Origin: Saccoglossus kowalevskii
Taxonomy: Eukaryota; Hemichordata; Enteropneusta; Harrimaniidae
DNA length: 30,691 nucleotides
Assembly (NCBI RefSeq): GCF_000003605.2
Contig: NW_003105105.1
Location: 253,157 to 283,847 of the forward strand
Direction of reading: 5' to 3'
Within the stretch, counting starts at the first letter, position 1, and each line of letters begins with the position of its first letter. Positions 2,063 through 29,521 of this stretch are shown here, piece after piece. Under the pieces are notes generated by a model. The model was not told the DNA's origin. It made no database searches and saw nothing but the letters and a program-made list of their open reading frames with translations. Position numbers and translations under genes: made by a program.

Positions 2063-2784
2063 TGCATTCGAATATAACTTGGTAAAAAAAGTACCTGGAA
2101 ACAATGCATTAGTTTTGGATTGAAATTCAAGCATACTAATTTGCACAACGTGCATAATCATCACATTTTATTAAAATTTGGTTCAAAGATGCTTTGGGAT
2201 AATCCACAGACGTGATTATTTTAATAATAAAAAACATGAATATCTAATTATTATTAGCCATTTTCTGGTATCACAAAATGTGTATCAACTAATGTATTTT
2301 CTGTAAGTATAATAAACTTATTACAATATTGTTGATCACATTGTACATCTCAAATAGCAGACTAAAATTAATTGCCAAGCTTCTTGTTTGGGAGGCTAAT
2401 TAATTTATAATGTCTCACTAGAGTTCTTCCTATGCTTTGTTTGATTATTATATCATTTTTCAGAGAGGAATGCTATTGTTATTGTGGCCTGCCATCACTA
2501 TTCCCAATGGAAAGGGACTTTGATACGTGTTATGTGATCAGGAAAGAATTCTTTTGATTTCATGACCCTCTTTAAAATTTGCCAGGTTCAAACAAATCGA
2601 AAAAGAATTGTTGAGAATATACGAGTTGAAAAACAAATTTGTACATTCACGCCTCCCCTTAGATTTTTTAATGTTTGACCTCTAATAAAGCCCTTCTATG
2701 TGACCTTGACACTGACTAGATTGGTATACCCACAAGACTGAAATAATATAAACCAAAGCAGAGAAAATTTCTTATATTTGACAG
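2063..2784 (+). other. Probable upstream citrate synthase intron, 3' part
   Basis: No gene is seen. The stretch ends in a fair splice acceptor (TTATATTTGACAG) immediately before the first recognisable citrate synthase exon, so at least its right part should be intron. The 5' exons (mitochondrial targeting peptide and about the first 198 residues by comparison with the 466-residue human enzyme) must lie further left, outside the window. Confidence 0.5.
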
Positions 2785-2984
2785 TTTGTGTATGAAGATG
2801 CAATGGATTTAATCGGTAAACTACCAATTATAGCTGCTACTATTTATCGTAATTTATTCCGTGATGGTTCACCAGTTTGTCCTATTGATGTTAAAAAAGA
2901 CTGGTCTTGGAATTTCACTGATATGCTGGGATATGATGATCCTATGTTTACAGAACTGATGAGAATGTATTTGACGTTGCTCGG
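2785..2984 (+). CDS. CS: Citrate synthase exon (helical core, [12 protein letters not shown])
   Basis: Encodes [14 protein letters not shown] through MRMYLTLL, matching human LIYEDSMDLIAKLP...LTRLYLTIH. The acceptor TTTGACAG precedes TTTGTG and the donor GTAGGT follows TCGG. The exon ends two bases into a Gly codon completed by the next exon. The NWSHNFTNMLGY region of the family reads [13 protein letters not shown] here. Confidence 0.94.
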
Positions 2985-5900
2985 GTAGGTACAGTGCATG
3001 TATTTACACTGTAAATCTTGGAAGCACTTTCACGTTTTTTATTAAAACATACCGTTTTAATTGAAAGCACGCTGTTGCAATTGACAACATGTATAAAACA
3101 CCTGTATTTTCTATCAAAACGGTAGTGTTTTAGAATTTTTAGAAAAGTGTTTTGCGGTGTTATTAAAATACTTTTGATGAAAATTAAGCACATTGTAAAC
3201 ACACTTTTTGTGTTTTACGGGTACATAAATGTGTTATTGAAGTGTTATTGATATGACATTTATGCATCCAACTTTATGCGAGCAGTATTAACACAATTGA
3301 GTGAAAAGTCTGGGGGATCGTAAGTAAACATTATGGTATATATACCAACTAGACAATCACAGAAGGTGACGTAATTCAACGCATGGTCATGACATTATCT
3401 TCAGAAAATAGTGTTATTTTAATTAATTTTATGTACGTTTATATGGTCTTACCAACCTATAAGTACAACTGCAAAACGAGACACGTGGTGAATTACTTAG
3501 TGGCCTAATGGATTTTGACACTCCGCATTTGGTGAAAGGTGGTTGTTTCAATTGCATTAGAGCAATCTCACAAGTGATTTAAACATTTTTCCCGAAAACT
3601 TTTCAATTTGAAACACTTCAGAAAGCAAAATCAAAAGCAAAGTGTTAATGTCTAAGACACATTTGTGTTCATGCGAATAATTAAAACACTTCTCTTTGTT
3701 TTACCTTGAAGCACTTCCTAAAACAAACACACATGTAATGTTTCAAGATAAAACACCCGACTATGCATGTTTTATAAGTGTTTGTGTACACGACATGTAC
3801 ACAAGTTCATAAGAGTAACTAAAACACTTCCAAACTGTTTCATTTTGAAGCACCTTCTAAAAAATGACCCCCCCATGTCACCATTGACAGCAGACATACT
3901 GTGCATGTAGCGATAAATTTATTGATGTTAGTATTTTCAATAATAAACAGCTTTATATATTCATATATTTTTCGAGTGTGCATGTACCTGTCACAAGTTT
4001 AATAACCAATGGAATTAAATATACGCGATGTTGTCAATACTTGAGTTAGTAAGCTAGATGACGTAGCACTAGACAGACGTTAATTCCCTATGATGTAATC
4101 ATTAGATTCATTAAGATTTCTCCATAGCTATTATTCTATTGGCGGAGCGTCAATGTTGAATTCCATCTAATATGGTGATTACCACACACCTGCGCAAATT
4201 TGTGTAGAATTTAAACAAGCTCGTCCAAGTCTCTAATAATATATAACCATTTAACTGATATTTAGAAATTTCATAAATACAATATGAAAACAAATATTGA
4301 ACAAAATTTTGAGATACCTTTCGTAAACGACGGTGTTCACGATGAACACTATTATATGTTACGTGTTCAAGTAACTCAATCAAATATTGAATTATACTAT
4401 CGGGAGAAGCAACAACAACTTGGACCGAAGGATGCCTTTTAGATTTTCTGAGGAAAGAAGGGTACCGGAAGTTAACCTAAATGAAACTGAAGGTATGATG
4501 ATATTGTTACTCCGTTACGAAACGTGTTAAGTTAAATTGATAGAGCCAGCGTCGGCAGTGTACTACATTGTTATTATGTGCAGGATAACTGATTAAAGGC
4601 AAGTTTATGCATTAACAGGACCAGAGCATTCCATCCTGCATAACTTCCTTACCGACTTCCCCCACGAGACATGATCTGAGTTACCAAATAAAATCATAGA
4701 AAAGTTGCAGAAATTAACAGACAGGAAAATGCAGTTCAATTCGTGTTAATGGTGTGTAGTCATATTTGGTAAATGTAGTTTTAAAACTACCCGTTTGAGG
4801 GAGTGATTTTAAAAGTGGTGAAAATAAGCAATCAGCCCATTTGACGGATAGAAAAGTGAAAGATGAATGAAATAGAATAGTGCATATATGCAGATTCGAG
4901 GATTGAGTGAGAATCTGATTGCAATATAGTGAATTTATTGCTACGGCGCATGTTTCTCTGAAACTAATGATTTTTTTCCCCATGAATTTGATGTGCGTGT
5001 AGAGACTACATTCGAGACAATACCACATGGGAAAAGATTGGACACTTTCATTTATGTAAATGAAGAAAGGGTTTAAAGATGTTATTGTTCGTTTCAGTTC
5101 ATTACTCGTCTGTTTTTAAGTGCCAATGTTCACAATTATTGGGTATTGTATCTACAGTTTCACGAAAGGTTTGAATTTCAGTAAACACACTTATTCAGCT
5201 GCACTTAATTCTAGGACACTTCCTCTTGCGATTGATAATATTTTTTACAACAACTATATATATTTTAAATGTTATACTTATCTTATTAATGTTTATATTT
5301 AGGAATAAATACTACTTGATTATGTGATATGTTTATTGTATATTATGATTGCTGTATGTTATCAGTGGAAAGACATTTTAAAATGTGTCTCTGTTACAAG
5401 CACTTGTGGGTATGCGATGATAAACACATACATATTTCTGGTGGAGCACTTTTCAAAATGTGTGTCTTGTGAGATAACTTTTCAAAGTACTGTGATTGTA
5501 ACCACTTCATTAAAACATGTCCTCGTGGAAACACTTTTCAATATGTGTTTCTATTGGAAACACTTTACATAATGTGTTATGTGCAATAATATCACTGAAA
5601 TGTTGCAATAAAAACACTGACTGCAAGTGTTTCCATCATATACACTTTTCGCAATTATCCAGATAATATATTTTAAGGGGACAAGCTTATAAACACTTTA
5701 AATGTTTTTCCACAAAACAGTAAAAATGTTTTATTTTAAAACAGTGGTGTGTCACATTTTTAATAAAAGACTTAGATTTATATTGTATACAAGTAGGCTT
5801 TCCATATTATATCACTGCTGTATTGCAATGTACTATATTTTCAACAACATTTGAACCTTGTTATGCTGTCATCGCCAAATTTGGTGACACTTTATATTAA

Positions 5901-8097
5901 AAAAAAACAATATTTTTTTCACTTCTCATAATGATTATTAGATCGTTTACCATTCAAAAATCAGTTGTGATTCAGTCTTGACTTGAACGATATCATAACA
6001 ATATCTATGATTACCAGCAGAGTTATATCAGCTTATGGGCTTCTATTTTGTTTTTTTATCCAGTATACCTAGTTGAGAGTTAAACGTTTTGGTCAAGGTT
6101 TTGTATAATAAATTCGTTATGATTTCATGAAAATGCTCTTGCTAATTTCAGTGAAACATATCTTTAGCTAAGTGGTTGCGTAGATTAATCTATTGGATTT
6201 GCTGTTGCATTCTGGTCAGACTTCTTCAAAGTAGTTTAGTTTTACATTCAAAATTTCCAGGTAATAACAAAATAACACTTTTAGATAAAAATTAAGACAC
6301 CCATTTTTAGAGTAAAACTAGTGTAAAGAAAGGCCAATGATCAAGTGACACATACCTAGGAGTTAGGTTGGTCAAGACAGGGATCAGTATCTTGAAATTA
6401 GTTGCTTCACCAATTTACAGTATTCATGGTAATTCTCGTAATCTCTTCATAGTGATCATGAAGGTGGTAATGTATGTTCACATACATGTCATCTAGTTGG
6501 CAGTGCACTGTCAGATCCATATCTCTCATATGCAGCAGGTCTAAATGGTCTTGCTGGACCACTCCATGGGTTAGCAAGCCAGGTAAGTGATCATAATAAT
6601 GTGGCACATGGGTATGGTACAGTGGCTAGCATGTTCACCTCACATCAGCCGCACACTCACTTAACATTGAAATAGAGTATGTTCACAGAAACAATATTCG
6701 GTTTGGAAGGATCATGGCATCCAATTGGATGGGCCAATAAGAACTCATCATGATTTGATGAACTTGATCATGTGCGCCGTTCACGTACTCTGTACACGTA
6801 AACCAACGTGGGATCTTTGCCTGTTTATTTGGGTAATAAATAAAATTAATCAAACAAGCAAGCAAGCTAGCAAGCAATAGTACTCGTTAGCACTAAACAA
6901 CTTGTGTTATAAATTTGGGTTTTAGTCCCCTGGTAATGCCACATTTTAAAGAAATCCTTGATGCATAAGAAATTGAAGCTGGTACCATTGTATTCTACAT
7001 TAAAACAAATATTTGATTGCTTCAATTGATATATCAAATGATGATATATATATATATGATTTATCACTTTATCTTGAATTATAGGAAGTGCTCTTGTGGT
7101 TGAACAAGCTTCAACAAGATATTGGAGTTGATGTGTCTGATGAGGAGATGCATGCTTTTATCTGGGATACTCTTCAGTCTGGACAGGTAGGTTGTTCCCA
7201 TGTGCTAGATATCTCTTGTCTTTTTTATGCTGTGTACTTGTTTGTATACTAATTCGACTCATTCGACTTCATGATTTTGCTTTATTTATCCTATTCCCAA
7301 TGCAATGGAAGGTTTGATTGCTTATTTTTATTTCTACTCTTTCCTTTTAGGTTGTTCCTGGTTATGGTCATGCTGTGCTGAGAAAGACAGATCCACGTCA
7401 TTTGGTACTACGCGAGTTTGCTTTGAAACATCTCCCAGAAGATAAACTGTTTCGTCTTGTATCACAACTGTACAAAATTGTTCCAGACATCTTGATCGAA
7501 CAAGGAAAAGCAAAGAATCCATGGCCCAATGTGGATGCTTGTAGTGGTGTATTATTCACAGTGAGTTTATATTATATGTTAATGACTTTATACCCTGGTA
7601 GCAAATCAGAAATTTAATATACAAAGTTAAATGTATCAAAAAGAGGTGTATGTGACCATAGCTATTTTGTTAGAGACAATTCATAAGCTCGTAGATTATT
7701 TAAAGGGGGACATACAATGGAGCTACAATACAGTGCAATTGTGACTGTTCAGTCCATATGGCTGGTTTGTGTGTTAGTGTACGATTCATGCCTGTTGGGT
7801 TGCATATTTATAAAATAAATATTAGTGATACAAATTCTGGCAGGATTACTGTGTTAGCAATTATGCTTACTAAACTAAAAAAAAATGCCATCAATTGAGA
7901 GCATTTTACATTTTTATATTTTTCCTTTACAGCATTATGGTATGACAGAGATGAGTTATCATACTGTACTGTTAGGAATCTCTCGTGCACTTGGTTGCAT
8001 GGCATCAATGATTTGGTCAAGAGCATTGGGCTTCCCCATTGAACGTCCCAAGTCAATGAGCACAACAGGTCTTAAAAAACTTTGCCATTCAAACTAG
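2785..8097 (+). CDS. CS: Citrate synthase, mitochondrial type (3' five exons; 5' part outside window)
   Basis: Five exons (2785-2984, 6453-6582, 7085-7186, 7351-7560, 7933-8097) join in consistent phase to 268 residues ending at a TAG. This equals the length of the human protein from the matching point to its end. Citrate synthase condenses acetyl-CoA and oxaloacetate in the mitochondrial matrix, the first step of the TCA cycle. Catalytic residues by pig numbering are present: His274 (PLHGLA, codon 6565-6567), His320 (GYGHAVL, 7369-7371) and Asp375 (NVDACSG, 7534-7536), as are the ligand Arg residues in [16 protein letters not shown] and PIERPKSM. Unusual changes: NVDAHSG of most animals reads NVDACSG, and LLQYYGM reads LFTHYGM. 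The identity is firm; whether it is the main enzyme or a diverged paralogue is open. Confidence 0.96.
2985..6452 (+). other. Citrate synthase intron of 3468 bp with CACTTT-type repeats
   Basis: Bounded by GTAGGT and TTCATAG. It is rich in AAACACTT/AAGTGTTT-like words, densest at about 3010-3240, 3590-3860 and 5370-5740. Short frames at 4150-5572 resemble no known protein and are taken as chance. No other gene is seen. Confidence 0.7.
5370..5580. repeat. Array of short palindromes (CACTTTTCAAAATGTGT type)
   Basis: At least five imperfect palindromic units occur in 210 bp: ACATTTTAAAATGTGT (5373-5388), GCACTTTTCAAAATGTGTG (about 5446-5464), AACTTTTCAAAGTAC (about 5477-5491), ACACTTTTCAATATGTGTT (about 5531-5549) and AACACTTTACATAATGTGTT (about 5559-5578). 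Spacing is irregular, about 30-70 bp. Each could fold into a small hairpin. It looks like a degraded tandem or foldback repeat; no function is evident. Confidence 0.6.
6453..6582 (+). CDS. CS: Citrate synthase exon with catalytic His (PLHGLA)
   Basis: Encodes [16 protein letters not shown] through GPLHGLASQ. The first base completes the Gly codon begun in the previous exon. Human [17 protein letters not shown] and PLHGLANQ align without gaps. It carries the oxaloacetate-binding His of DHEGG and the acetyl-CoA-activating His274 (pig numbering). Acceptor CTTCATAG, donor GTAAGT. Confidence 0.96.
6602..6878 (+). mobile_element. tRNA-derived SINE in intron
   Basis: Head GGTATGGTACAGTGGCTAGC followed by ATGTTCACCTCACATC (about 6611-6646) resembles the A-box half of tRNA-derived SINEs. 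The B box is degenerate (CGGTTTGGAAGGATC near 6698). The body ends with GTGGGATCTTTGCC and a simple AAT-rich and CAAG-repeat tail (6835-6878). About 275 bp, within the intron between the second and third recognised citrate synthase exons. Clear target-site duplications were not identified. Confidence 0.55.
7085..7186 (+). CDS. CS: Citrate synthase exon ([10 protein letters not shown])
   Basis: 34 codons, phase 0 at both ends: [20 protein letters not shown] onward to TLQSGQ, aligning with human EVLVWLTQLQKEVGKDVSDE...TLNSGR. The Arg before VVPGYGH in human is Gln here. Acceptor TGAATTATAG follows an alternating TA tract; donor GTAGGT. Confidence 0.95.
7351..7560 (+). CDS. CS: Citrate synthase exon with catalytic His and Asp
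   Basis: 70 codons, phase 0 at both ends, from [16 protein letters not shown] to [15 protein letters not shown]. It contains His320 and Asp375 (pig numbering) and the Arg of [10 protein letters not shown]. The residue two after the catalytic Asp is Cys where nearly all animal enzymes I know have His (NVDAHSG). Acceptor TTCCTTTTAG, donor GTGAGT. Confidence 0.96.
7933..8097 (+). CDS. CS: Citrate synthase last exon and stop
   Basis: 54 codons plus [23 protein letters not shown] through [18 protein letters not shown] to CHSN. Human has [20 protein letters not shown] and [15 protein letters not shown] at the same place, and a similar short C-terminal tail. Acceptor TTCCTTTACAG. The Arg residues of ISRALG and PIERPKS that bind substrate in the family are kept. 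Confidence 0.96.
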
Positions 8098-21964: not shown

Positions 21965-22164
21965 TTATTCTAACAGTTTGGCACAGTCATTCATATCATT
22001 TTCTACAAAAATTTTATACAGATTGCCAATAGTAGCATCTGTTCTGCCTTGCCATGTCTGCAGAACTTGTTCTCCTCCATTACCCTTCTGTTGCCAGAGT
22101 TGAATTAAATTCTGGTAGTCGGGAAATTTAGCTATTTCAGCAATGATGCGCCAGTCAGAACCAT
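21965..22164 (-). CDS. Death-domain gene, last exon: MyD88/IRAK-type death domain and stop
   Basis: (N)GSDWRIIAEIAKFPDYQNLI through LQTWQGRTDATIGNLYKIF to NDCAKLLE and TAA. GSDWR.(I)AE and the TWQGR..AT.G.L..I block match the MyD88 death domain (ADWTALAEEM, AWQGRPGASVGRLLELL) and related IRAK/Pelle/Tube domains. It is clearly different from the FADD-like domain upstream. Acceptor TTTGTTTTCAG. The protein ends directly at the domain edge with no tail, kinase or TIR domain. Confidence 0.88.
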
Positions 22165-25100
22165 CTGAAAACAAACAGATCAAACAATGAAGCTCAAGCC
22201 CTAATGTTCTTAAAGAATAATTATGAGACAGTTTATCTGAGGGAAAGGACTGGTTTGTTTATTTAACCAACTGATGACTGCTCCTGGTTGCTAGGCGCTA
22301 CTGAGCATGCCCACATAATTAATTAGAAGACAAGGTCACAATAATACAGAAGTAGAATACTGCAGAAGCCTTGATTTTTTAGGTATCAAAATGAAAACAA
22401 CAGGTCGCAAACAATTTTACTGTAGGTCAATTTACAATACTTGACTAGCAGTGTATGACATGATTTGAAATAATATACATGTATTTGTATTACTTAGGAC
22501 AATTTAATAAAAGGACTTAGAAAAGTTTTTTAGAATTTATTATTTTTGAATTTATTATTACGCTATCTTGGGAAGTACACTTGTTCATTGTGAGACAAAT
22601 TACATGTGGTCAAGGGTGGTTAAAGGTACTATAGGCGCAAGACAACCGTTTCTGCAGCAGCATCAACCAACAAAGTAGGATGCACTAAACTATACACATT
22701 TTGTGATTGAATGATGCCTTTGCTTGTACAAACTTGTCTAAGTTTTCATTCGATAAAAACATGTTATGTAAAACGATGTTTGATTTCAAGTATGAAGGCA
22801 AACTATGATTTAAGAAGCAAAAATGACAGGATATGAAAAACATTGCATTGGTGGTTTTGCATGTTATAGTTTTACCAAACCTCAACGGATGTTGAAAAGT
22901 ACAAATATGCAGACTAATAAGGTCACAAATGAATACCAATGGGGAAACCTGAGTTTACTTATCGTCAAAACGTATTATTTTCCAGAAAAAGCCGACATAA
23001 GTCATGGATTGGTCGAGATATACCTGGCATATCTTTGAATTATCAAAAGAAGAAACCTGTACGTGGAAAGTGATTGTCATTGAGGGGGAATCAATACAAT
23101 GCCTTTAAAGGTTCTCTCAACACCACAGAGGATTCATGTACCATTGCGTTAAGGGACAGTGTCAAAATATAAAAACCCACATACAGTTATTTCTTCATTT
23201 CTCATCCAGTTTTACTCAAATCATGTTCTTATTTATATTCAATATAATAATAGATGTGTTATGTTTGTATTGGGTATTGCCACTGTAAATCGTGTCCACC
23301 CTTCCACGCGGCTGACACCAGACTGACAGTATCACTCCAGTCACATTCAATGAACGACGATAAAAGTCAGTTATCAAGAACAAATGTGCCACTTAATCAG
23401 TGAGTTCTATTTTATTCCTTGATACAAAGGAAATCAATGCCTGGCCAATGCTGATATGATAAAGATCTTGTTGTTGAACTTGCATGTTTTATAAACGTGC
23501 ACAAATTAGATATTATTCAGATAATGTGTGCATGTTGAAGCGGATGTATGAGTAGTGTCGTAATAGTATTTTGGGAAATGATCGACATAACTGTGAATAT
23601 AATAATTTTTACATTGACATTCGCTGATTGTATGAATGTCAATTTGTCAGCCCTTCTTAATAAATTGGTAACTTGGATATAGATTGCTGTAGTTTTTACA
23701 TTCACTAATTGTGATATTTGTCGTAAAACAGTGTAAATGTCTTTATTTCTACACTTACTAGTAATTTTTTAGGTCTAACAAATGTTTTATTTTAAGACAA
23801 ATTTTCATGTACATCTTGAATAATATACATGCTAGTTTAAATTACAGCAAATAGGAAACCCAGAAAGTGTTAACGACAATCGACGATCACAACAACAGAT
23901 GTGTTAACCTCTATACTTCATTTTTATTAAGTATATTTGAAAATTAATGAAATGATGATTTCAACTCACTGGGCTTTTCGATTGATAGCTGATTATTTAA
24001 TTTGTTCCTCGTTGAAAATGGGATTTTCTGGAATGATGTCATGTTTGACATTGAAGGACCTGTGAACAAATAAAAAGATTATAGATTCTGTAGTACAGGG
24101 TAATAAATCATCAACAACCTCCAGTGGACACAAATTACAATCCTTGTGAATGTATTCAACAGCAGCGGATATAAGTTCTGTGTAAATCTTTTTTTTACCT
24201 TTTCACCACTAGAGTTTCTCGCCCAATTTTGTCTAATAATTCTTATAATATACATTGTGTATTTCTGGAAATGAACCTTAAATTCGGAGCCAACAGACAG
24301 AATTTTTACTCAAAAAAATTGGCTATTGCCAATCTTCTGAAGGAAAGTGCAGACTATGAACAGCACTTTCTGTGAATTTGTGATGAAAAGAGGGAATGGT
24401 GGTGAGAGGGTTAAGCTGATGATCAAAAATTAACAATAAGGGGACTGGGGGGTTGGAATACAAACTAGATGAATGGCTTAAGGACGTAGTCAAGGTTTTC
24501 AGGAAGTACAATTATTTTAATAGAAGAATTGTTTTAAACCATATCAAATAAATTATGAAATAAAAAATGTTATGACATACATAATATTAAAAGTGCAAAC
24601 ATACAGCAATGTTATTCAAAATATAATTATTAACAGTAATATCAGTGAAGCATACCTATGAGACCATTACCAGACCAGTATTTCTTCAAAACATCAACAA
24701 TATCTTCTCTGGGAAGGTCTCTCATAACCCGAACAAAAAAATTGGTCTTTTTTCGTCGCTCAATTAGTGGCATTGTCATCGGTTTGTAGACCTTCTCCCA
24801 TTCTGTACACACTTCAAATATTGGTACATCACTATCAAGCTACATAAGACATATATACAAGTCATTTAGTTTAGAATGTAAGCACTATAATGTCACTGGC
24901 AAAAGTAAAGGTTTCAAGGCAGTGTGTCAAAAGTTTGATCAGAATCATTAATTGTGATTGATACAAAGATTATCCCTGATCTAAACAAGTAATATTTGTC
25001 TTTATTTGCAAGTAACATTATCATTCTCATAAAAGTTTTAACAAGCAACCTGTCGGCTGAGATAGCTTCGCTGTTAGCAATGCACATTTCAATTAAAGAA

Positions 25101-28100
25101 CAGAAGATATCATTAGAAAATGAACAATATGTATTGTATCAATGCACCAATAATGACAAAAATACTTATCAAAATTAGAGAATTGAAGATATCATCATGA
25201 AATGAACAAATCTGAGAGAGGTCCACATGTAGTACCTACATATGTAATATCAAAGCAATTGGATTTGTGGTTTTTAACAAGAAGTCAAAAATATTACTTT
25301 TTACCAAAAATGACAAAAATATTCATCAAAATTAGAGAATTACAAATATCATTACAAAATGAACAAATCTGAAAGAGGTCCACATGTAGTACCTATATAT
25401 GTAATATCAAAGCAATTGGACTTGCGGTTTTTAACAAGAAGTTGAAAATATCACTTTTTACCAAAAATGTAAAAAAAATATTCACCAAAATTAGAGAATT
25501 AAAGATATCATTACAAAATGAACAAATCTGAAAGAGGTCCACATGTAGTACCTATAAATGTAATATCAAAGCAATTGGACTTGCGATTTTTAACAAGAAG
25601 TTGAAAATATCACTTTTTACCAAAAATGACAAAAATATTCACTAAAATTAGAGAATTAAAAATATGCATGCAAATTATAGCTAACTAGTATGCACAGGCG
25701 AATCTTAATAAAGTGATTGTTATACATTAAAACACCTAGGAAGTACATCGTAAGTTCTAATTCATTTGAGCACTATTAGAACACAAATAAAGCATGGTTG
25801 TCATTCCATGTTAGAAACATTCAGAATAAAAAAAAGAAGATACACTCGTATAAAAAAACTAAACTAAACTAAACAAAACTACAATATAACAACTTACAGT
25901 CAATTTTAGCCTTTTCTGCACTTTCCTCATTTCTTCTTTGTTAAAATATTCCCTATCCAAGGTCTCTAAGTCATCACAAATTTCGTCAGTAAATAGCAGA
26001 GGCTCAGATTCCGGTTCTTCAACTAAAACCAAAGTGACAATATGTGACAAAACTAGTATACATCATTTTTTTTTTCATTTTTTAGTAGGATTACTTTAGG
26101 GTTTGATAACATGTTCCTTCCATTAAACAAATCATTATCACTGACACAGTCCCAGTATGTATAGGGGGGGAATTAATATTTAAGGACACACAATTATGTC
26201 CTATCCCAACTTTGATTAAAAGCTTACAACGCAAAAAAAAATGGACACATTAAAAGAAAAAAAAACATGGCCACTAGTTAATGCGTGTGGTTGTTGGGAC
26301 TCAATTCTCGTGTGTGCTCATGCGACAGCCCCTTCGCTTGAAACATTTTTAATCAAATCACAAAAGAAAATATCACATGGGTTGTACCTACCAAGTTTGA
26401 ATAAAATTGGCCAAGGCAGACTCTGTTTAGAGTGAGATTTCAAAAAATTCCATGGCTAAATACTATCATATCATAATCCCAAAATACTGTTTTCAGATAT
26501 CATGTTCAATTTGTGTACACTGTGAACCCTTTCTATTCAAATCTTTAATAAGGAAAGTTTGAAAGGTCAACAATATAATACAAAGAATGAAAACTTTAAA
26601 AATCAACAAACGTACCTTGTATACAGAAGTCTCCGCTACCACCAATAGCAGCCATGTTAGTACTCAGTGTTGATTTTTCTGAAAATGTAAAGATGCAATC
26701 ATTAGAAGAGTTCCCACTGATTTTCACATGTTGAATACAGTCCTTGGTTATTTGCCCTCAAAGGGATGTATGTATGAAACCAACATTTAATAATTTATAT
26801 TTTGTCCTGCATCCTGTGTGTATACAAATCAAAAATATGATTTTATACTTTATAACACTGGTTGAATATCAATATCTGTATAGTGTTCTAGATATGATAG
26901 TTATGCCTTTTTAATGAAGACACATGACCTGTGCTTATTAAATATGTTGATTAAATCTACTAGTACAAACATACAGACAGACATATGTACGGACACTGGT
27001 AATGACTATATCAACTGCTGACAATATGCAACGAGATAATTAAATCATCACAGTTGTCAAGCAGTGTGTGTTCAAATTTTGTGTAAACAAATAACATTTC
27101 AAACATGTGTTGTACACTTTGCATTGGACCAATAGCAAACACAGCATGGATCAATACCTGTGGGATACCGGTACTAGAAAGCTTTGAAGAAATGAGAATA
27201 AAGTTAATGCATACAGTCTTTACCTGAGATATTGAACTCCATGCAAACTTTGTCTGCTAACTGATTTAATTTGCATTCACGCATACCCATTACTATTCTA
27301 GTGCCAGTACATTTATCTAAATTTTCTTTTCTCCTCCATTTCACTAAGGCATTGCGTTTAGTTTCTCGTAAGTCACTTCGCGTATTTTCCTCCACTTCTT
27401 CAATTTCTACATCAGATAGGCCGAGACATCTCACAAGTGGCCTCCAATCGTTCTTAGGTAACTCATTCACAACAAACTCAATGATTTTATTATCTTCCTG
27501 CAAGACAAATAGGATATTTTTACTGTCATCAAGAACATTTCTGGTTAGGTCAACCCAAAATCAAAGGGAGACATCAAATGACTGAAGGACATTTTGAATA
27601 ACAACACAGCTGGTCATTGTAGTCATTCCATGCTCCGTTTCTATAAATATAGCCAATTATGACAGTTTCATAAATATGTTATTCAACCATCTCATTCATT
27701 CAAGAGTGATTTAATAAAAATTAAGGATGTTTTCATGTGCAAGGGAACAGAACGATATAAAGTATTAAAAACAACTTGAGAATTTTACATGTATATTGGA
27801 TCAGTGATGATGAATTGAAACGAAGCATTCCAGGAACACATGTTTGATGTTAACCACTTCAAATTAATAAACAATATAATATACCTTTGAAGAAGATGTG
27901 GAGGAACTGTCAATAGTAGCTTGTTTCTGTTGCATTAACACATTTAATTCCCTTTTTTTTATCAGCTTTAATTGTCTCTGCAAGATACCCACTTCTGATT
28001 CTGGTTCTGACTCTGGGATAGGTAATGCTAGTGATTCCTCTCGAGAAACAGCTTCTGAATCTTGGACAGGTTGTACTTCTGATTTCTCTTCAGAAACCGG

Positions 28101-29521
28101 ATGGTACATTTTTGTTGTTACGCTAGCATTCATACCTGGCTTTTGAGTTTCACAAGTAATTATGGTTTCGCCTACAGGCTTCTCATCTACATTATTGTTG
28201 CTCAATCCTTCTTGACTGTGTACTGAAGCATCTTCAGTTTCCTCAGTAATTATTGGCTCTTCTTTCGACTCAATATTATATGCACCCTCGGTTTCAGTAG
28301 TTACTTTTACTTTTTTAGGGGGCTTTGAATTCCCTGACTCAATGTTACTAATTTCTTGCTTATTTTGTTCTGTTGCTTGATGAGAATATGGCTCTTCTTG
28401 CGACTCAACATCATTTCGCTTATTGTTATTCTGTTCTGATGAAGCTAAACTCTGGGTTAGTGGCTTCTCATCTTGCTGTTTATTGCTGACCAAGCTATCT
28501 TTACTTGATACAAATACATCCTGGGTTTCAGTAGAACCTACCAGCTTTGGATTCCCTGTCTCAATCTTGCTAGCTTCTTGCTTATTTTGCTCTGTTGCTT
28601 GATGAGAATGTTTCTCTAAATAATTTTCATAAAATTCAGCTGTCTCCTTCTCTTTCTTCAGCTCATAAGCCAAAGATACTTCAGTATTTTGGGAGCTTTC
28701 TATCCATTCTTCGTCTGGAGTTTTAATATTCTGCATTTTTTTCAGTTTGTCGTCTGCATCTTTTGAGTATTCAGCGCCAAGGGCATTGATATTTTTTTCA
28801 TAGGTACCTCTTTTGAATTTTTGCCTCTCCAGCTGCAATCTCAACTCTTCTATTTTTTTTTTGTTATCATCTGATACTCCACTATCTTTCTGTGTGACAG
28901 CATTGTCTTCTGGCTGCACAGATGAGAAAGCTTTTAATTTCTCTTTGTTGTCTTGGTTACCAAAAGATGTAGTATCCACATCTAGTGTTCTATTATCTTC
29001 CTGTGAGGCAGCAGAATCTTCTGGTTGCACAGCCGAGGAAGAGGCTTCTGATTCGTCATTGTTGCCATGGCTACCAAAAGATTCAGTATCTACCTGTAGA
29101 TCATCAGACGGCAATACATGTAGACCATCATTATCTTTAGTTTCCATCACAGCTTTTTTTACAGTTGGCTTGATTTCACTGGACACGCTTTTTTCTTCAG
29201 AACTGTCTTTTATGTTCAATTTGTTCATATCACTATCTAAAGTACTGTTAGCAATCACTTTCTTAAGCTCATGGTTTTCATTTTCAACTCTCTTTGTATT
29301 TTCTCTCAGTTCACTGTTTTCAATTTTGAGACATTCAACTTTGTTTTCCAATTCAACAAATAATTTTCTTGCACTTTTTTTCTCATCAGACATTTGTTTT
29401 CTCGTATCTTGTGTAGCTCGTAATTGTACTTTAAAATGTAGTATAAGCTGAGCGAGTAGCTCATCTTGAAAACTGTGATGTGGTGTTCTGTAAAACTCAG
29501 CACAACTGCTTTGAATGTACT
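21965..29521 (-). CDS. Coiled-coil protein with FADD-like and MyD88/IRAK-like death domains (5' exon not found)
   Basis: Seven exons (29521-27885, 27497-27224, 26678-26616, 26022-25898, 24839-24656, 24059-23970, 22164-21965), all with GT-AG borders, join in matching phases to 857 residues plus stop. Layout in that numbering: coiled coil about 20-95; Ser/Glu/Thr-rich linker with internal duplications to about 545; FADD-like death domain about 550-635; unrecognised middle segment about 655-765; MyD88/IRAK-type death domain about 770-857. Death domains assemble into signalling oligomers in the cytosol, so an adaptor or scaffold role is likely. The first exon starts inside a codon after a strong acceptor, so an N-terminal exon is missing, possibly beyond the window. 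The splitting into one gene is inferred from phase and strand; two adjacent genes are possible but less likely. Confidence 0.8.
22165..23969 (-). other. Intron of the death-domain gene (1805 bp)
   Basis: Bounded by GTGAGT and TTTTCAG. It contains AT-rich sequence with several frames of 60-85 codons, none recognisable and none with convincing splice borders. No repeat family was identified. Confidence 0.6.
23970..24059 (-). CDS. Death-domain gene, exon with first helix of C-terminal death domain
   Basis: 90 bp: (G)PSMSNMTSFQKIPFSTRNKL then NNQLSIEKP. Acceptor TTTGTTCACAG, donor GTGAGT. The IPFSTRNKLNNQLS segment corresponds to helix 1 of MyD88-type death domains (compare LNVRTRRRLGLFLNP in MyD88), which the next exon continues. 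Confidence 0.75.
24060..24655 (-). other. Intron of the death-domain gene (596 bp)
   Basis: Bounded by GTATGC and TTCACAG on the minus strand. Nothing else is seen in it. Confidence 0.6.
24656..24839 (-). CDS. Death-domain gene, exon with unrecognised middle segment
   Basis: 61 codons plus one base: LDSDVPIFEVCTEWEKVYKP, then MPLIERRKKTNFFVRVMRDL and PREDIVDVLKKYWSGNGLI. Fully open, good acceptor (TTATGTAG) and donor (GTATGC). The composition suggests a folded helical piece, with hydrophobics spaced in FFVRVMRDL and IVDVLKKYW, that I cannot assign. A third, diverged death-fold helix bundle or part of one is possible. Confidence 0.78.
24840..25897 (-). other. Intron of the death-domain gene (1058 bp), mostly tandem repeat
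   Basis: Bounded by GTAAGT and TTATGTAG on the minus strand. Over half is the ~157-bp tandem array listed separately. A 60-codon frame over its edge (24996-25178) is not a gene. Confidence 0.6.
25092..25670. repeat. ~157-bp tandem repeat, three-plus units
   Basis: Successive copies of AATGACAAAAATATTCA.CAAAATTAGAGAATT, a TATCATTACAAAATGAAC block, AGAGGTCCACATGTAGTACC, GTAATATCAAAGCAATTGGA and TTTTTAACAAGAAGT start near 25148, 25305 and 25462, with a partial fourth from 25621. Spacing is 157-159 bp. Units two and three are closest; unit one is more diverged. The left edge (25092-25130) carries a short extra degenerate copy of the AAAGAACAGAAGATATCATT part. Confidence 0.9.
25898..26022 (-). 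CDS. Death-domain gene, acidic linker exon
   Basis: 125 bp: (V)EEPESEPLLFTDEICDDLET then a helix LDREYFNKEEMRKVQKRLKL ending in Thr. Acceptor TTTGGTTTTAG, donor GTAAGT. Acidic first half, basic helical second half. No known domain. Confidence 0.75.
26023..26615 (-). other. Intron of the death-domain gene (593 bp) with dispersed repeat
   Basis: Bounded by GTACGT and TTTTAG on the minus strand. On the plus strand 26383-26420 reads TACCTACCAAGTTTGAATAA then AATTGGCCAAGG, a relative of the repeats at 130-175 and 455-500. Otherwise nothing is recognised. Confidence 0.5.
26616..26678 (-). CDS. Death-domain gene, short linker exon
   Basis: 63 bp. The only open frame that fits its neighbours reads (E)KSTLSTNMAAIGGSGDFCIQ. 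Acceptor CATTTTCAG, donor GTACGT. Its entry phase (two bases complete a codon) and exit phase (one base over) match the flanking exons. A small flexible linker with no domain; being short and low in information, it could be skipped or mis-called. Confidence 0.65.
26679..27223 (-). other. Intron of the death-domain gene (545 bp)
   Basis: Bounded by GTAAAG and TTTTCAG on the minus strand. No gene or repeat is recognised. Confidence 0.55.
27224..27497 (-). CDS. Death-domain gene, exon with FADD-like death domain
   Basis: 91 codons plus one base, EDNKIIEFVVNELPKNDWR onward. NDWRPLVRCLGLSDVEIEEV, then a charged helix ending in ALVKWRR, then GMRECKLNQLADKVC match the helix 2-3, helix 4-5 and helix 6 pattern of FADD (KDWRRLARQLKVSDTKIDSI, SLRIWKN, ALRSCQMNLVADLV). 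The Trp of DW and the Trp of helix 5 that form the death-domain core are present. Acceptor TTGTCTTGCAG, donor GTAAAG. The exon encodes essentially one whole domain. Confidence 0.88.
27498..27884 (-). other. Intron of the death-domain gene (387 bp)
   Basis: Bounded by GTATAT and CTTGCAG on the minus strand, phase 0 on both sides. Nothing else is seen. Confidence 0.6.
27885..29521 (-). CDS. Death-domain gene, long exon: coiled coil and S/E/T-rich linker
   Basis: 545 full codons plus two bases of a split codon, open throughout, between acceptor CTTTGTTTTTTTCAG and donor GTATAT. It starts (x)YIQSSCAEFYRTPHHSFQDE. A coiled coil follows with heptads around ELENKVECLKIENSELREN (about residues 20-95). 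The linker has a ~38-residue duplication (VDTESFGSHGN... at 29093-28980 and VDTTSFGNQDN... at 28979-28869, each with VQPED). A second duplication starts with SHQATEQNKQE at 28607 and 28385, each followed by TET and DEKP. A further helix near the end has LQRQLKLIKKREL. Frames on the plus strand here are shadows. No enzyme motif is seen. Confidence 0.85.

Follow-up and report, generated by a model that had tools for sequence, protein, structure and literature searches.

The question raised by this locus is whether a single gene encodes an adaptor in which death domains of different classes are held together behind a coiled coil. The window, i.e. the whole analysed stretch of 30,691 nt (C5:253157-283847), in whose positions the coordinates below are given, had been read in the first-pass annotation as containing such a gene, with a coiled coil, a long acidic linker, a FADD-like and a MyD88-like death domain in an order known from no standard animal adaptor. 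The exon anatomy, the two death domains and a module common to paralogues are established here at the sequence level. The genome searched for relatives comprises 572 Mb in 4830 contigs.

The seven minus-strand exons with agreeing phases could be rebuilt. They extend from 29521 to 21965 and, once joined, give the long open chain that had been announced, its length being 856 residues plus a stop rather than at least 857 residues. All six introns are of the GT-AG type, with phases 0,1,1,0,1,1, and the joined exon DNA contains a single stop in one frame, located at its end. The splice sites were scored with a simple matrix and ranked against the 452 AG and 448 GT sites of the region; on this scale the seven acceptors all reach at least the 87th percentile and the six donors at least the 92nd, the weakest donor being that of exon 1 (AAG/GTATAT). 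The remaining part of the window carries two exons of a citrate synthase gene on the plus strand (2782-7617; Pfam 32.3 and 60.9 bits) and a 21-bp minisatellite of 19.7 copies (1646-2059), in which the frames are open on both strands. An Rfam scan of the window gave no match.

Exon 1 (27885-29521, minus strand, 1637 nt; acceptor at the 99th percentile) lies within a stop-free frame of 561 codons and encodes the zipper and the long acidic linker. The leucine zipper (29250-29354, minus strand) covers residues 56-90 and is marked by L57, L64, L71, V78 and L85, i.e. five leucine or valine residues at heptad spacing between residues 57 and 85; in the PDB this region matches the HY5 leucine zipper best (E 0.004). 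A zipper in the N-terminal part is thus supported by its heptads and by this match, and the coiled coil claimed earlier finds its heptads at moderate strength, as 217 of 10,000 shuffles of the first 100 residues equal the five heptads. The linker (27960-29240, minus strand, residues 94-520) is as long and acidic as had been described, with 89 D+E versus 51 K+R. It includes a 74-nt internal duplication (28322-28395 and 28544-28617, minus strand, 86 per cent) whose spacing of 222 nt keeps the frame.

The 5' end of exon 1 is open in frame, directly after a phase-1 acceptor. Read in frame, the first ATG is met at 29393 (residue 43), ahead of the zipper, so that translation may begin at this codon or in an exon further upstream. 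Beyond the window, the next 24.5 kb on the upstream side (C5:283848-308335) read N; with the N-terminus unread, the observed domain order is possibly not the complete one. From 308.3 kb of the same contig onwards further frames occur on the same strand, one of them PARP-like by eye.

DD1 is encoded by exon 2 (27224-27497, minus strand) and is FADD-like, with a Pfam core at 27246-27482 that was also placed by the genome-wide Pfam search. DD2 is divided between exon 6 (23970-24059, minus strand, phase 1-1), which carries its helix 1, and exon 7 (21965-22164, minus strand), which carries the MyD88/UNC5-like helices 2-6 and the stop codon. The alignment with MyD88 spans the exon 6/7 junction and thereby supports this splice. 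In the whole protein Pfam recognizes two Death (PF00531) stretches (E 8.4e-15), and each domain taken alone exceeds the cut-off of 22.6 bits, DD1 clearly (41 bits) and DD2 barely (23.8 bits). Both are thus assigned from their sequence to the death-domain class. The top PDB matches of DD1 are FADD (1.1e-7), TNFR1 (5e-6) and RIPK1 (0.002), and those of DD2 are MyD88 (2.3e-4) and UNC5B (8.7e-4). When DD2 is combined with two paralogues into a profile, the order is MyD88 (2.3e-6), UNC5B (1.8e-5) and FADD (0.007). The proposal of two death domains of different classes is borne out in this sense, DD1 being nearest to FADD and DD2 to MyD88 and then UNC5. A structure model of DD1 from the single sequence predicts helices but is poor (mean pLDDT 52.5) and was not counted as evidence.

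A genome search with the whole protein, in which only the best candidates were scored, gave 11 matches at E<=0.001, seven of them inside the window. Outside it, DD2 matches places on contigs C2894 (50 per cent) and C2311 (43 per cent), and two weak matches concern DD1. Around both DD2 matches, exons resembling exons 4-6 are also found. The C2894 gene (L023, 333-3613, plus strand) is complete from ATG to stop, with seven exons, intron phases 0,0,1,0,1,1 and 292 residues in the order CARD-death-death; Pfam assigns 36.8 bits to its CARD and 39.6 bits to Death in two stretches. On C2311 the last four exons of the module are present. The four-exon module X-DD2, where X denotes the region between DD1 and DD2, has the phases 1-0-1-1 identically in the window, C2894 and C2311, including the phase 1-1 of exon 6. 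Judged by these exons, the X-DD2 half belongs to a small family of the same genome, so that the gene appears to be a familiar type of signalling adaptor in reshuffled form.

Further death-fold genes were observed on other contigs. A candidate CARD-death-death gene on C2351 (L051, 2039-6000, plus strand) consists of two Death frames (42.3 and 44.2 bits) that come after a CARD exon (27.2 bits). The C2311 locus contains two CARD-like exons (L039, 6944-7045 and 8084-8149, plus strand) on the strand opposite to its X-DD2 exons; these lie near the contig end and perhaps represent a second, inverted copy. By eye, the C2311 frames also show wording like that of a 157-bp tandem repeat (3.3 copies, 25146-25665) inside intron 4 of the window gene. 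On C2440 (L049, plus strand) leucine-rich repeats, recognized by eye, are followed by two death domains, a PIDD-like set with a doubled death domain. Its simplicity makes the C2894 gene a suitable relative for functional studies.

The region X corresponds to exon 4 (25898-26022, minus strand, phases 1, 0), which carries its first half, and exon 5 (24656-24839, minus strand), which carries its second half with an RxD motif in the form R-E-D. These two exons probably encode a third, degenerate death domain, overlooked in the earlier count of two, of which DD1 and DD2 stand. They occupy the same place, with the same phases (1, 0), as the corresponding exons of C2894 and C2311. Against a profile of the C2894 and C2311 copies of X, exon 5 ranks at the top of the 713 open frames of the window (8.1 bits; next 5.4), and the whole window copy scores 7.3 bits, a value which 8 of the 1951 shuffles scored, from 2000 generated, also attain. 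The C2894 copy alone gives 23.4 bits with Pfam Death against the cut-off of 22.6, and a slightly longer join gives 19.5, under the cut-off. The window copy alone has no Pfam Death match, the C2311 copy is not called Death by Pfam, and the C2894 copy has no meaningful match among solved structures. The two single-sequence searches, with the window copy against the local loci and with the C2894 copy against the genome, do not link the two. An assignment of exons 4-5 to Casc1_N reached E 0.005 but, at 17 bits, stayed below the cut-off of 28.2, and was treated as chance.

The placement of the domains was analysed in a tree of 48 rows, composed of 40 genome death domains, DD1, DD2, three paralogue domains and human FADD, MyD88 and UNC5B fragments. 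Apart from DD1, death domains had been located at 54 places in the genome; 40 of these entered the tree and 14 were left out. The resolution of the tree is low, with 9 of 45 inner branches starred and 23 open. DD2 forms one clade with the domains of C2894, C2311 and C2359 (support 97/92), and the C2894 copy of X stands on a very long branch (3.8). DD1 is found with FADD and a domain of C4134 (82/82, the branch drawn open), so that its placement near FADD is weakly supported. The domain phylogeny called for at the outset thus sets DD2 in a supported clade of paralogues and leaves the grouping of DD1 with FADD weak. As to the idea, raised beforehand, that both death domains might come from one known multi-death-domain family, DD2 and the middle domain form a local family and DD1 lies outside it.

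The labels FADD and MyD88 hold as sequence resemblance and not as orthology, since the reciprocal comparison fails for both domains. The human FADD death domain prefers C4134, with DD1 sixth among the other 47 rows, and DD1 is ruled out as the FADD orthologue. On C4134 a DED frame (60.7 bits) lies upstream of the death-domain frame on the same strand, which makes this locus the likely true FADD of the genome. A search with the human MyD88 death domain reaches C3944, C2984, C4034 and C2311 before DD2, fifth of nine matches that are all weak, the best E being only 0.025; DD2 as the MyD88 orthologue is ruled out as well. At E<=0.001 the genome as a whole yields at least 55 matches to the death domain and 23 to TIR. 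A hybrid of FADD and MyD88 was rejected because a likely FADD with its DED lies elsewhere, because human MyD88 reaches DD2 only in fifth place, and because no TIR is present. From the sequence comparisons, the exons are read as a FADD-type domain added to a local death-death module, not as FADD fused with MyD88.

One gene rather than two is the likely arrangement. It is unlikely that two adjacent genes are present, one with zipper, linker and DD1 (exons 1-2) and the other with X-DD2 starting at the ATG of exon 3, which would leave no shared scaffold. Exon 3 (26616-26678, minus strand, 63 nt, phase 1-1) forms a short linker in which homology was not seen. Its in-frame ATG at 26655 is well placed, in a good start context (AACATGG), and thereby leaves room for a separate X-DD2 gene; translation continued past the exon 2 donor ends at a stop no more than about six codons on, and X-DD2 is a module common to the paralogues. 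However, the acceptor and donor of exon 3 rank at the 98th and 100th percentile and the donor of exon 2 at the 99th percentile of the GT sites of the region, as expected of internal exons. In C2894, moreover, X-DD2 follows another death-fold domain instead of standing alone, and no exon that begins with an ATG, has a donor score >3 and could be joined in phase to exon 2, 3 or 4 was found within introns 1-3.

For the single gene, a further reading concerns its front end, where the full protein may possess an N-terminal CARD and represent a long CARD-zipper-DD adaptor, CRADD-like but with additional domains, that would recruit CARD caspases. This is possible but rather unlikely, and it is compatible with a scaffold. 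The frame of exon 1 is open to a phase-1 acceptor; in C2894 the opening domain is a CARD, the final exon of which terminates in phase 1, and on C2351 two death-domain exons come after a CARD exon. On the other side, the upstream N stretch is unreadable, the ATG at 29393 could itself be the start, and exon 1 has no second genomic place at E<=0.001 in the search scoring only the best candidates. The degenerate state of the window copy of X would also suit a decaying or unexpressed gene fossil instead of a working adaptor, which is very unlikely given 856 codons free of internal stops, intact splice sites and a linker duplication kept in frame.

Compared with known systems, the single gene with its zipper and death domains shares parts with several adaptors. 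DD1 is nearest by sequence to the death domain of FADD, a DED-DD adaptor, but a Pfam scan finds no DED in the 856 visible residues, the 5' end being unread. DD2 and the profile with its paralogues match MyD88, a DD-TIR adaptor, first; in contrast to MyD88, the stop follows directly behind DD2 and the Pfam scan reveals no TIR. The C2894 paralogue, as CARD-X-DD, resembles CRADD/RAIDD (CARD-DD), and RAIDD is the third PDB match of its CARD (E 0.0017), behind two designed proteins. CRADD/RAIDD possesses one death domain, whereas C2894 has two and the window gene probably three, and the latter shows no CARD in its readable part. Helix 1 of DD2, with KIP-S-R-K as in UNC5B, recalls UNC5 (ZU5-UPA-DD); unlike UNC5 and ankyrin, the protein has no ZU5 or UPA in its 856 residues according to the Pfam scan, the 5' end again being unread.

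New combinations of death domains, CARD, DED and other domains are reported for amphioxus in the available part of one study (PMC2575513), and IAP proteins with death domains in new architectures for oysters in that of another (PMC8917759). A chain of a zipper and three death domains is not named in those parts of the two reports (PMC2575513, PMC8917759). No description of the domain order of this gene was found in the titles and abstract beginnings of the open-licence papers retrieved on death domains, MyD88, FADD, CARD and domain combinations. The order claimed to be absent from standard adaptors is indeed seen here, but it is partly shared with C2894 and with the candidate on C2351. Since the amphioxus study already describes death-fold shuffling and the oyster study IAPs with death domains (PMC2575513, PMC8917759), the system does not count as new in kind.

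The reading that we favour, with some reserve, is a lineage-specific scaffold, paired through its zipper, that would present three death-type domains for the formation of death or immune complexes. From the anatomy described above we infer a single transcript, dimerisation, assembly, partners, a coupling of Toll-type to death-type signalling as proposed in the first-pass annotation, and a role in immunity or cell death. The one gene would give a cytoplasmic scaffold protein, two chains of which would be joined by the leucine zipper. The acidic and probably flexible linker of roughly 430 residues would carry the C-terminal block DD1-X-DD2, in which X-DD2 would have been inherited as the four-exon module common with the CARD-death-death genes and the FADD-type DD1 added to it. 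Death domains form helical stacks. Pairing of the chains would raise the local concentration of death domains, and a dimer joined by the zipper, each chain bearing three death-type domains, may seed helical assembly at low concentration. The assembly would then draw in partners through type-matched contacts; as a guess from domain class, these may be death receptors or FADD-type proteins for DD1 and IRAK/Pelle-type or MyD88-type proteins for DD2.

A bolder version, in which a zipper-paired chain with FADD-type, degenerate and MyD88/UNC5-type death domains and a 5' CARD acts as a hub of DISC-like, Myddosome-like and CARD-caspase-like complexes, is quite unlikely. If it were true, one protein would do the work for which several are assembled in animals whose adaptors carry a single domain. 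For the favoured scaffold, the locus would allow a test of whether a chain with death domains of two classes recruits separate partners or just gains avidity. If the exons belong to one transcript, the gene would show how a lineage has added a FADD-type domain and a zipper to an existing CARD-death-death module, leading to a multi-input scaffold.
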